Positions 3,860 to 40,585 of a stretch of 64,000 nucleotides of DNA are shown one piece after another. Below the pieces are notes generated by a model, which saw nothing but the letters and a program-made list of their open reading frames with translations, did no database searches and was not told the DNA's origin. Source of the DNA: Microbulbifer elongatus (GTDB lineage Bacteria; Pseudomonadota; Gammaproteobacteria; Pseudomonadales; Cellvibrionaceae); assembly GCF_021165935.1 (NCBI RefSeq), contig NZ_CP088953.1, positions 2,465,501 to 2,529,500 on the forward strand, in the 5' to 3' direction. The position numbers were made by a program, and so were the translations under genes. Each line of letters begins with the position of its first letter. The stretch's first letter is position 1.

Positions 3860-3944
<85 letters not shown>

Positions 3945-37633: not shown

Positions 37634-37746
37634 GGGGGTCTACCTGATGGGAACGTTCAGGCGGGAATTCTAGCGGATTTTGGTTGGGGATCGCAGTAGG
37701 GAAACTGCTATTGCGATGGTGGGTAATGTGATTATGTGGGCTTGAA

Positions 37747-37858
37747 GGTGGCTCTGCCGGTACAGGCTTGCAAGACCTTCCGCGAGAGGGACCTCGCGGA
37801 AGAGCCCCCATGGATGGGTTCACGGCGTGTATTGCAAGCCTGTACCGGCAGAGTCACC
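37747..37858. repeat. Variable-arm hairpin element, copy 1
   Basis: A 58-nt core (37773-37830) is enclosed by 27-nt arms (37747-37773 and 37832-37858) that are complementary at 26 of 27 positions. Within the core are a perfect 10-bp hairpin (CTTCCGCGAG / CTCGCGGAAG, 37777-37786 with 37793-37802) and a smaller CCCA-N4-TGGG hairpin (37807-37818), so the whole could fold into a three-way junction. Copy 2 (40414-40530) has the same core and unrelated arms. It sits between yceI and the DUF2058 gene. Confidence 0.9.
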
Positions 37859-37890
37859 GCCACAAAACTTAATTTATGGCGATGAACTTA

Positions 37891-38469
37891 CTATTTCTGC
37901 TCAAACACCAGACTGGTAGTCACCGGCACCATCGGGCTGATGCTATCCAGGCCAGCCACTTCGCGCAGCTTCTCGATACCTTCGAGCAGCTTGTAATCAC
38001 CGGCATTGAGCAGAATGGGCGCCTTGGTGGTGACCAGCAGGCTGCCGCCTTCCAGACCGGTAACATGAAGCTTGGCCTTGTGGGTTTTGGACTCGCCGTG
38101 GATCGCGACAGTAACATCCGCGTTCACCGACATGGTCTGACCGGGCTTCAGGGCCTTCAGTTTCGCGGCATCCACACTGGTGGAAACTGTCGCCTCGGCG
38201 AATTTCGCCGTCTCGAAGAGCATTTTCTGCATCCGCTCGTTGCGGATCGGGATGTTGGTCTCCACGCTGGCCAGGTCGATGGTCACTTCCGCCTTACCCT
38301 CGTCGGAAATGGCACCGCTCACGCTCTTGAAAAAGTGGGTCTCGGCAATGGTGCTTTTTTTGACGGATACGAAATTGACACTGGAGTCATCACCGGCCAG
38401 CTGCCAGTCAGCGAACGCGGAAACGGGCAGAGCAAGTAGGGATGCCAGGGCAATGGACTTTAAAGTCAT
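37891..38469 (-). CDS. yceI: YceI-family periplasmic lipid-binding protein
   Basis: 192 aa with a signal peptide (LALPVSAFA, cleavage near residue 20). The lipocalin-like YceI beta-barrel shows the pattern WQLAGDDSSVNFVSVKKSTIAETHFFKSVSG and TVAIHGESKTHKAKLHVTG. Relatives bind polyisoprenoids or quinone-like lipids. It is flanked by the two copies of the hairpin element, with ahpF upstream. Confidence 0.9.
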   Translation of the reverse strand: MTLKSIALASLLALPVSAFADWQLAGDDSSVNFVSVKKSTIAETHFFKSVSGAISDEGKAEVTIDLASVETNIPIRNERMQKMLFETAKFAEATVSTSVDAAKLKALKPGQTMSVNADVTVAIHGESKTHKAKLHVTGLEGGSLLVTTKAPILLNAGDYKLLEGIEKLREVAGLDSISPMVPVTTSLVFEQK

Positions 38470-38628
38470 GGTGATTCTCCTGTTTCAGACTCGGTAGTGA
38501 GACCGGGGTTTAATCCATACACAGACTGTGTCGACCAGAATCGACCAATCGGTTTCAGGTGAGAAACATTATCAGTCACTGTGGTTACTGGCCAGTGAAA
38601 GTCAGCGAATAGTAGTAAAAACTGCAAA

Positions 38629-38653
38629 GAAAAAAAGCCGGCTAGGGCCGGCT
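38629..38653 (-). terminator. Intrinsic terminator of ahpF
   Basis: AGCCGGC / GCCGGCT stem with a 4-nt loop. On the minus strand it is followed by a T run. Two more hairpins lie between it and ahpF (38681-38699, GATGGGA / TCCCATC; 38709-38737, CCGGGCGC / GCGCCCGG). These account for the 304-nt space between yceI and ahpF, where I see no gene. Confidence 0.8.
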
Positions 38654-38773
38654 AAAGGTTGAGGATGGTTCCCAGTGGGGGATGGGAGGGGTTCCCATCG
38701 GGGAGAGGCCGGGCGCCGCTGGGAGGCCAGCGCCCGGTGTTGCGATATCGCGCCGAGGCAGGTGTGGCGCCAC

Positions 38774-40369
38774 TCAGCTCGCCAGTGACAGCGACGCATT
38801 CGCTGTCGCGGCATTTTCATCCGGTACCGAATGGCGGATCAGGTGATCAAAGGCGCCCAGGGCGGCGGTAGCGCCGGCACCCATGGAGATCACAATCTGT
38901 TTGTAGGGCACGGTGGTAGCGTCCCCCGCGGCGAACACACCGGGTACGGACGTGGCACCGCGGCTGTCGATCACAATTTCACCAACTCGGTTCATTTCCA
39001 CGCCGCTGCCCTTCAGAAACTCGGTGTTGGGTACCAGGCCGATCTGCACAAATACTCCCGCCAGTTCCAGCTTCCTGCGCTCACCGCTGACGCGGTCGGT
39101 GTATTGCAGGCCGTTGACCTTGCTGCCGTCGCCGAGCACTTCGGTGGTCTGGGCGTTGGTGATGATGTCCACATTCGGCATGGAGCGCGCCTTGCGTACC
39201 AGTACCTCGTCAGCGCGCAAGGTGTCGGCAAATTCCAGCACCGTGACCTGCTTGACGATACCGGCGAGATCAATGGCCGCTTCGATACCGGAGTTGCCGC
39301 CGCCGATCACCGCCACGTGCTTGCCCTTGAAGAAGGGGCCGTCACAGTGCGGACAGTAAGCCACGCCACGGGTTTTGTATTCCGCTTCACCAGGGACTCC
39401 CAGCTCGCGCCAGCGGGCACCGGTGGCCAGCACCACGGACTTACTGGCCAGGGTAGCGCCGCTCTCCATTTGCAGCTCGATCAACTGTTTTCGTTGAAGG
39501 TCGGCCGCCCGCTGCCCGGTAATGATGTCCACACCGTACTCTTTCACGTGCTGCTCGAGGCTGGCGGCCAGCTTCGGGCCTTCGGTGTAGGGCACGGAAA
39601 TAAAGTTTTCGATACCCACGGTATCCATGACCTGGCCACCGAAGCGCTCCGCCACCAGAGCGGTGCGAATGCCTTTGCGCGCGGCATAGATCGCCGCTGC
39701 GGCACCGGCGGGGCCGCCACCGAGCACCAGTACGTCGTAGGGCTCGCGCCTGTTCAACTCTTCCGCTTTGCGGGCCTCGGCACCGGTGTCGATCTTTGCC
39801 ACGATTTCTTCCAGGCCCATGCGGCCCTGGCCGAAGTGTTCACCGTTCAGGTAGACCGCGGGCACCGCCATGATCTGGCGCTCGTCCACTTCGTCCTGGA
39901 ACAGGGCACCGTCGATCATTTCGTGAGTGATGTTCGGGTTCAGGTTTGCCATCAGGTTCAGTGCCTGGACCACGTCCGGGCAATTCTGGCAAGACAGTGA
40001 AATATAGGTTTCAAAGTGGAATTCACCTTGGATATTGCGAATCTGCTCCAGCAGTTCCGGATCCGCTTTGGACGGGTGGCCGCCGGCCTGCAGGAGGGCG
40101 AGCACCAGGGAGGTGAATTCGTGTCCCATGGGGATGCCGGCGAAACTGACGCGCGGGGCTTCTCCGGCGGGCGCGATGGCCATGCTCGGGGTGCGCTTGC
40201 GGCTCTCCTGTTGCAGCTCAATTTGGCTGGAGAGGCCGGCGATTTCGCTGGCGAGGTTGTTCAGTTCAACAGCCTTGGGGCTGCTGTCGGCGGACACACT
40301 GATCTGGATCGGAGTGACGATATTCTGCAGATAGGTGTCCAATTGTTTCTTTACGTTTGCGTCCAACAT
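38774..40369 (-). CDS. ahpF: Alkyl hydroperoxide reductase subunit F
   Basis: NADH-dependent flavoprotein disulfide reductase that recycles AhpC. 531 aa. The N-terminal double-thioredoxin domain carries CQNC (near 128-131). The FAD domain has [12 protein letters not shown], the redox CPHC (near 345-348), an NAD loop [11 protein letters not shown], and the C-terminal FAD motif GVFAAGDAT. All elements are intact. It follows ahpC on the minus strand, with hairpin copy 2 in the gap. Confidence 0.97.
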
Positions 40370-40413
40370 CGGTGTGTCCTGAAATTCGGGTATTTATCAG
40401 AGGTTGTGGTGAA

Positions 40414-40530
40414 GGCGCCGATGCCGGGTGCTCTCTTGTGAGACCTTCCGCGAGAGGGACCTCGCGGAAGAGCCCCCAGGGATGGGTTCACGGCGTGTCT
40501 CACAAGAGAGCACCCGGTAGCGGCGGCGCC
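40414..40530. repeat. Variable-arm hairpin element, copy 2
   Basis: The 58-nt core (40441-40498) differs from copy 1 at one base (G40479 versus T37811). The inner arms are 20 nt and perfectly complementary (40424-40443 with 40498-40517) but share no meaningful sequence with the copy 1 arms. A further GGCGCCG / CGGCGCC pair (40414-40420 with 40524-40530) extends the stem across an internal loop. It lies between ahpC and ahpF in the same orientation relative to transcription as copy 1. Confidence 0.92.
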
Positions 40531-40585
40531 ACTGAACTCTATTCAGAGCTCTGAATTGTTGCGGGCCGAAGCCCGCTGTGGATGG

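Follow-up and report, generated by a model that had tools for sequence, protein, structure and literature searches.

Introduction

Among the systems in print, and as far as the accounts at hand extend, the closest relatives of the elements described here are the YPAL/RU-2 repeats of Yersinia. These are intergenic palindromes of ~168 bp that occur in high copy number, have no known transposase, and are associated with target-site duplications of 3-26 bp (PMC2759123, PMC2229807, PMC2267715). We followed up a sequence-only reading of a 64,000-nt stretch of DNA (the window), which corresponds to positions 2465501-2529500 of the 4,196,952-base single-contig genome of Microbulbifer elongatus and contains two copies (A and B) of a conserved core, at 37773-37830 and 40441-40498, each enclosed by long inverted arms. 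On balance, we lean towards viewing these elements as a YPAL-like dispersed palindromic cassette, whose arms are matched and whose core is flipped by replication template switching, and whose core is perhaps kept by CsrA/RsmA.

When compared by eye, the order printed for YPAL/RU-2 (an AnGGAT-loop hairpin, a short linker, and a TACATGGATGTATTTACGGCG hairpin) is also that of the Microbulbifer core, and both kinds of element are intergenic and lie close downstream of stop codons. Their lengths are 124 nt, as matched by our covariance model R1, plus ~20 nt of weak conservation per side for the Microbulbifer element, and ~168 bp for YPAL. When six 16-mers of the core were sought in the literature, one was found, solely in PMC2759123. 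However, the arms and the host group differ, and the accounts of YPAL/RU-2, known here from citing papers, mention no in-place inversion, mirrored arms or CsrA-type loops.

The REP/BIME repeats (GTAG and CGTC families) are described as palindromes of 20-40 bp with a GTAG or CGTC tag (PMC3733652). Like them, the elements studied here are intergenic, lie downstream of genes and often form close inverted pairs; unlike them, they measure ~124 nt or more, do not track with Y1 (RAYT) transposases and have no constant tag, the right arm carrying GGTAGC in one subfamily and GGTGCT in another. CsrA-sequestering RNAs of the CsrB/RsmY/RsmZ type are single small RNA genes with many GGA-loop hairpins. Our elements share with these the repeated GGA-loop hairpins and two sites within bridging distance, but they are scattered as many two-site copies, oriented either way relative to genes, and are read here from DNA sequence only. 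In the attC sites of integrons, recombination sites lie in the stem ends, the stem sequence is free and the fold is conserved; the present elements may be analogous in these last two respects, although here the tip is conserved.

Finally, template switching between inverted repeats has been described to result in arm homogenisation and spacer inversion (PMC8604942), and the same argument has been made for the perfect stems of RNA genes (PMC8794818). Mirrored arm changes and a spacer inverted between unchanged arms, as in such products, are found here in high-copy bacterial repeats with a conserved ~52-nt spacer, in contrast to the cases presented in the available parts of these two papers, where the inverted spacers measure a few bases.

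Results and discussion

A large intergenic family

A DNA search of the genome with copy A returned 42 matches, representing 40 places (itself included) plus its own two inverted arms. Model R1, built from 27 of the first 30 loci (L026, L028 and L030 were excluded for insertions), gave at least 140 matches when 150 of 2181 first-look candidates were scored. Applied to fetched loci, it identified at least 141 distinct elements, that is, 185 matches less 44 that were either mirror-strand matches over a stronger hit or duplicates from overlapping loci; the weak places L100, L103 and L132 lie outside this set. The family is intergenic: among the 141 elements, overlap with a called gene never exceeds 15 nt, and they mostly adjoin gene ends, with median distances to the facing gene end of 49 and 33 nt, placement numbers being approximate since genes were called with a simple hexamer script.

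Between co-directional genes, 55 elements lie in sense and 48 in antisense (p = 0.55 for 55/103); 30 others lie between convergent and seven between divergent genes, and one is at a locus edge. Of the gaps in these loci that measure 100 nt or more and hold no element, 58 are co-directional, 28 divergent and five convergent. Likewise, the 99 elements in other Microbulbifer loci comprise 36 sense, 34 antisense, 16 convergent, four divergent and nine edge cases. The lack of strand bias does not, therefore, support a strand-specific RNA function at each site. Close pairs in the M. elongatus genome are head to head (minus then plus) in 19 of 22 cases, 18 of these 19 with a spacer of 50-90 nt.

Pairing and mirrored changes in the arms

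In an alignment of 27 copies, 98.5% of the 1218 arm cells are paired, against 39.5-43.9% in slid controls; 160 cells are double-changed, 24 of the 30 arm pairs are changed on both sides, and none of 500 shuffles matched any of five covariation measures. The proposal of the sequence-only reading that pairing is kept while the sequence is free is thus borne out by covariation. Its suggestion that the arms are unrelated between copies holds for their middle, which is free family-wide, but the arm ends are partly conserved and the core-aligned left arms of copies A and B agree at 11 of 27 positions.

Paired arms were also read in other genomes. In genome G338, left arms differ between copies at a median of nine of 30 positions, yet 14 of 20 copies pair perfectly across all 30, and the 11 non-Watson-Crick cells (of 600) are confined to the outer 11 positions. 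The arms in G298 measure ~25-49 bp, several are perfect, and their sequences differ among the copies of that genome. Three copies read in G127 share nearly the same arms, and copies in G143 and G095 have similar arms. Of the 26 loci L250-L275, 20 yielded arms and the others missed the pattern or threshold; a second survey found them in 59 of 60 loci (57 tabulated, L394 among the loci). Since the second covariance model, R2, covers only about nine inner pairs, the outer pairing in loci found with it is not imposed by the search. The variable-arm model of the sequence-only reading, with arms complementary in most copies and not conserved across them, largely stands: complementarity is general, but copies in one genome have their arm ends partly in common, and those read in G127 share their arms.

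A stem selected as RNA is expected to contain G-U pairs at least as often as mismatches. In 105 of the 141 elements (lengths 120-124), the inner arm (positions 19-33) comprises 1504 Watson-Crick (95.5%), 16 G-U (1.0%) and 55 other (3.5%) combinations out of 1575; some of these 55, at positions 19-20, are an apparent register artefact, and positions 21-33 have 16 G-U against 31 other. The outer arm (positions 5-12), which is the only control here, has 662 Watson-Crick, 92 G-U (11.0%) and 86 other (10.2%). Each of the four Watson-Crick types is frequent at positions 21 and 22. This scarcity of G-U in the inner arm argues against plain selection for an RNA hairpin, where the arms would covary by point mutation and compensation because the transcript needs the stem, for example for mRNA stability. 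Such selection would fit the very strong covariation, the stable folds and the placement adjoining gene ends, and YPAL has been proposed to affect the stability of upstream transcripts (PMC2229807); however, the mirrored insertion and in-place inversions presented below, together with the lack of strand bias, also speak against it, and we regard it as quite improbable.

Mirrored changes were seen among young copies in genome G343, where the cassette sits in the middle of ~230-bp elements whose ends are inverted repeats with TA. There are two such families, with different arms around a like core. In one of them, among 16 of 18 copies, 14 cells are mirrored (nine distinct changes, some shared by descent) and five are unmirrored. 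The two copies treated apart are L394, which has a one-base insertion mirrored in both arms, and L381, which has several changes while its inner 28 pairs are perfect. The arms are best explained at the DNA level. Strong covariation is commonly accepted as evidence proving that an RNA is functional. In these elements its main source would seem to be the copying of DNA from arm to arm, so that they could mislead covariation screens; they also offer a natural high-copy test bed for the origin of perfect stems.

A DNA-level alternative is that a new palindrome arises at every insertion, through inverted duplication of the target, or that insertion takes place into a hairpin already present, both of which the sequence-only reading had put forward. 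In keeping with this, the arms show no relation from one genome to another and, in many cases, none among copies in the same genome. Nevertheless, the proposal was not borne out at an empty site in G333, facing two G298 elements, which has no 8-nt word of either arm, although the stretch is strongly diverged; alignments of Microbulbifer empty sites are also strongly diverged across the insertion junctions. Moreover, arm ends are common to copies of one genome, and in G343 arm-core-arm units were copied along with their surroundings. We consider this origin of the arms highly improbable.

Core inversion and exchange of whole elements

The clearest inversion is seen between locus L134 of M. elongatus and L353 of its relative HZ11, where flanks, tails, and outer and inner arms agree and the core is reversed. 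When the orientation of cores was scanned against that of the outer arms in Microbulbifer loci, two were discordant, 184 concordant and 48 unclear. The second discordant core, L207, lies at the site of L149 of M. elongatus, which has the opposite core, and is less clean because the inner arms differ too. In G343, where 14 and nine copies from 36 loci were examined in the two families, the core is reversed relative to the spacers in five of 13 readable copies of one family and one of seven of the other.

At orthologous sites, replacement of the whole element is often seen in place of inversion of the resident one, and opposite orientations occur: seven of the 24 sites laid out one to one, L149 included, have at least one relative with the opposite orientation. 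In the comparison with HZ11 (48 element records, some duplicated across two loci and eight unmatched, facing 30 distinct M. elongatus sites), a script scored 25 sites as having the same orientation, 18 of them of equal length, and five as opposite, of which L092/L201 is doubtful since both sites hold a pair of elements. The HZ11 pairs that were aligned are of two kinds. In one, element and near flanks are both the same (copy B, L099); in the other, the element is different, and so are its tails and near flanks. For instance, the ahpC-ahpF site of copy B carries the same element in HZ11, M. elongatus and the window, and a different element in the other orientation in M. harenosus (two records) and an uncultured Microbulbifer. 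Rapid in-place compensation between M. elongatus and HZ11, considered on the basis of 57 both-sided against 29 one-sided cells, was rejected and the count not taken as proof, as those of the aligned pairs that have many double changes are different elements with different tails.

Mirrored arms together with core inversion are the published outcome of template switching, and we therefore favour template switching between the arms, a mechanism supported by the changes in G343 and by the in-place inversions in L134/L353 and G343. The cassette would fold into a hairpin during replication and the polymerase would switch template between the arms, one arm being rewritten from the other, so that the stem may remain perfect while its sequence drifts; a switch would sometimes flip the core.

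Homologous recombination of the arms with each other and with those of other copies would likewise homogenise arms and flip cores, and could swap core types. It predicts the same mirrored arms and inversions, and it would fit the different core types at some orthologous sites with like arms (L118 vs L184) as well as the exchange of whole elements between species. Nevertheless, arms of ~20-35 bp are short for RecA-dependent exchange, and exchanged elements differ in tails and near flanks, which conversion within the arms would not yield. We hold arm recombination to be unlikely, although present data cannot separate it from template switching.

The core and its loops

From outside to inside, the element consists of weakly conserved tails of ~20 nt, a partly conserved outer arm, a free inner arm and the core, which comprises hairpin 1, a short linker, hairpin 2, a UUCAC bulge and GGCGUGU. 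The stem of hairpin 1 varies, with 19 distinct stems in 85 M. elongatus elements. Among 230 elements, all of 130 nt or less, 210 have two hairpins with GGA in the loop, ten have one, seven have three and three have none. In the second loop of 247 distinct elements, scored with no letters preset, position 1 is A in 247, position 3 is G in 246, position 4 is G in 246 and position 5 is A in 247; position 2 is G in 147, T in 92, A in six and C in two, and position 6 is T in 214, C in 26, A in four and G in three. Hairpin 1 has a hexaloop in 134 of the 247, the remainder being scored by script as 4- or 5-nt loops.

Several copies depart from this plan. A nested module of ~55-65 nt, with its own small stem whose sequence varies while pairing is kept, lies inside hairpin 1 in L030:1405-1587, L112:1801-1993, L127:1801-1976, L149:1801-1982 and L169:594-771; HZ11 L177, at the site of L030, has the same arms without it. 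Inserts occur within loop 1 (L151:1801-1960, L105:1801-1960, L133:1801-1973) and within hairpin 2 (HZ11 L178 and L213, facing L016 and L029 of M. elongatus). In a variant found in several copies (L026, L028, L128, L148, L156 and others), a G-run and, after it, a CGCCTAGC-type stretch take the place of the right side of the core.

Both loops match the A-N-GGA-N signature, which as a hexaloop on a stem is the target rule of CsrA/RsmA, with a bridging range of 10-63 nt between two sites (PMC7652899). The GGA motifs are 20 nt apart in both window copies, within this range, and hairpin 2 of some copies (e.g. L254, L255, L258) is the consensus obtained for CsrA by systematic evolution of ligands by exponential enrichment (SELEX). 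From the loops alone, we infer CsrA binding as a possible role: with less assurance than for the arms, we suggest that what keeps the core constant may be the binding of a CsrA/RsmA dimer to its two ANGGAN loops, which lie 20 nt from each other, upon transcription of the GGA strand. If so, mobile repeats would burden a global regulator in a way not recognised so far. A bolder and rather doubtful possibility is an invertible and widespread CsrA decoy, present in over a hundred copies in certain gammaproteobacterial genomes: a two-site hairpin on one strand, which replication-driven flipping would switch on or off for the adjoining transcript at each site, so that the genome would carry heritable, slowly reshuffled CsrA buffers on mobile DNA.

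Searches for known RNAs were largely negative. At the gathering threshold, Rfam has no match to the elements anywhere in the window, its sole match there being a tRNA gene at 3860-3941. With E values up to 1, L106, L003 and L119 gave five sub-threshold hits, none of them to TwoAYGGAY or CsrB/RsmY/RsmZ. The TwoAYGGAY RNA (PMC2864571) was rejected as a candidate, since, from what is available of its description, the likeness is in name, and there is no Rfam match. No paper treating YPAL and CsrA together was found in the open-access literature with one wording of the query.

Several points weigh against the account favoured here. The search models include the loops and inner pairs, so loop and pair counts are biased towards these. 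Unmirrored changes exist (29 of 558 cells are one-sided between M. elongatus and HZ11, besides the five in G343), so selection for pairing may also act. The clean in-place inversion in Microbulbifer is one pair only, and many apparent compensations relative to HZ11 stem from whole-element exchange. Copy B is identical to its HZ11 counterpart over 124 nt while the flanks differ, as if the element in its entirety were constrained or homogenised. With respect to CsrA in particular, the elements have no strand bias in M. elongatus or other Microbulbifer; the sub-threshold match to Ysr224 in Rfam is on the opposite strand; and CsrA was found in 50 of 54 element genomes and in 18 of 20 listed element-free genomes, so its presence does not discriminate. 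G255, which is 98% complete, has nine core matches and no CsrA match, and may be a case against a CsrA role. CsrA-family matches, some of which may be fragments, number 12 in G003 and five in G004 (Microbulbifer genomes without R1 matches), and one each in M. elongatus and G030.

Alternatively, the core may be a single-stranded DNA recognition structure for a transposase or recombinase, as in attC or REP hairpins, with an enzyme that moves and flips the cassette and for which the loops are contacts. A constant core between free arms, the lack of strand bias, the head-to-head arrangement of 19 of 22 close pairs and the presence of young copies within small mobile elements would all fit. However, the loops closely fit a known RNA-binding protein, and transposases of the Y1 type, the enzyme family searched, do not track the element: G012, G021 and G035 have at least 40, 23 and 17 R1 matches, respectively, and no Y1 match, G003, G004, G007 and G030 show matches to Y1 but none to R1, and no element match lies near the two Y1 genes of M. 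elongatus. Mobilisation by a Y1/RAYT transposase is accordingly unsupported, and we judge a recognition structure improbable. In a check for phage vehicles, the core pattern occurred in only two stretches of viral contigs.

Distribution in Gammaproteobacteria

R1 matched 37 of 58 relatives: 33 of the 37 that belong to the genus, plus four from other families within the order. Of 274 genomes of the class, 54 were matched by R2, M. elongatus included, and these represent 48 of 222 genera; the suggestion of the sequence-only reading that similar cores occur in other gammaproteobacteria is thus supported. In a draw across the phylum, 17 of 299 genomes matched, all within the same class or nearer. 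Match counts per genome in relatives are lower bounds, with stricter filters above 40 genomes; G006, for example, has six matches with R1 and at least 15 with R2. The same core with unrelated arms is found in many gammaproteobacterial genomes, which joins scattered hairpin repeats, including Yersinia YPAL, into one core-defined group. Among named records with the core pattern, all 58 stretches are from Microbulbifer. On contig 1 of G534, six core matches follow one another on one strand at 94430-95645 with a spacing of ~227 bases, resembling a tandem array.

The two copies in the window

Direct comparison confirmed that the two cores are identical at 57 of 58 positions, the sole difference being T (copy A) or G (copy B) at position 2 of the hairpin-2 loop. 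The 58 nt form a real core, but the element is larger: on the plus strand, R1 spans 37743-37864 for copy A (128.8 bits) and 40410-40533 for copy B (142.2 bits), and R2 also matches at 37764-37842 and 40432-40510, with weak conservation ~20 nt beyond either side.

The long inverted arms reported earlier are likewise present and pair in the predicted folds. Those of copy A (37747-37773 and 37832-37858) are 27 nt with one mismatch, and the perfect part of those of copy B (40424-40444 and 40497-40517) is 21 nt. Hairpin 1 lies at 37777-37802 in copy A and 40445-40470 in copy B, with the hexaloop AGGGAC in both (37787-37792 and 40455-40460); hairpin 2 with its bulge lies at 37804-37826, with the hexaloop ATGGAT (37810-37815), and at 40472-40494, with AGGGAT (40478-40483). 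The predicted folds of both copies agree with a core of two hairpins within a three-way junction, as had been suggested. Folding z scores against shuffles are -9.54 (copy A) and -9.06 (copy B) as RNA, and -10.81 for copy B as DNA.

Copy A lies between a DUF2058 gene and a YceI-domain gene. The neighbours of copy B are a gene of the AhpC/TSA family and one, taken for ahpF, that encodes thioredoxin and pyridine-nucleotide oxidoreductase domains. All four genes are on the minus strand and both copies are on the plus strand; the GGA strand is therefore antisense to the neighbouring genes. The region of the M. elongatus genome at ~2.4-3.1 Mb is sparse in elements, the bins from 2.4 to 3.2 Mb holding five of the 141.

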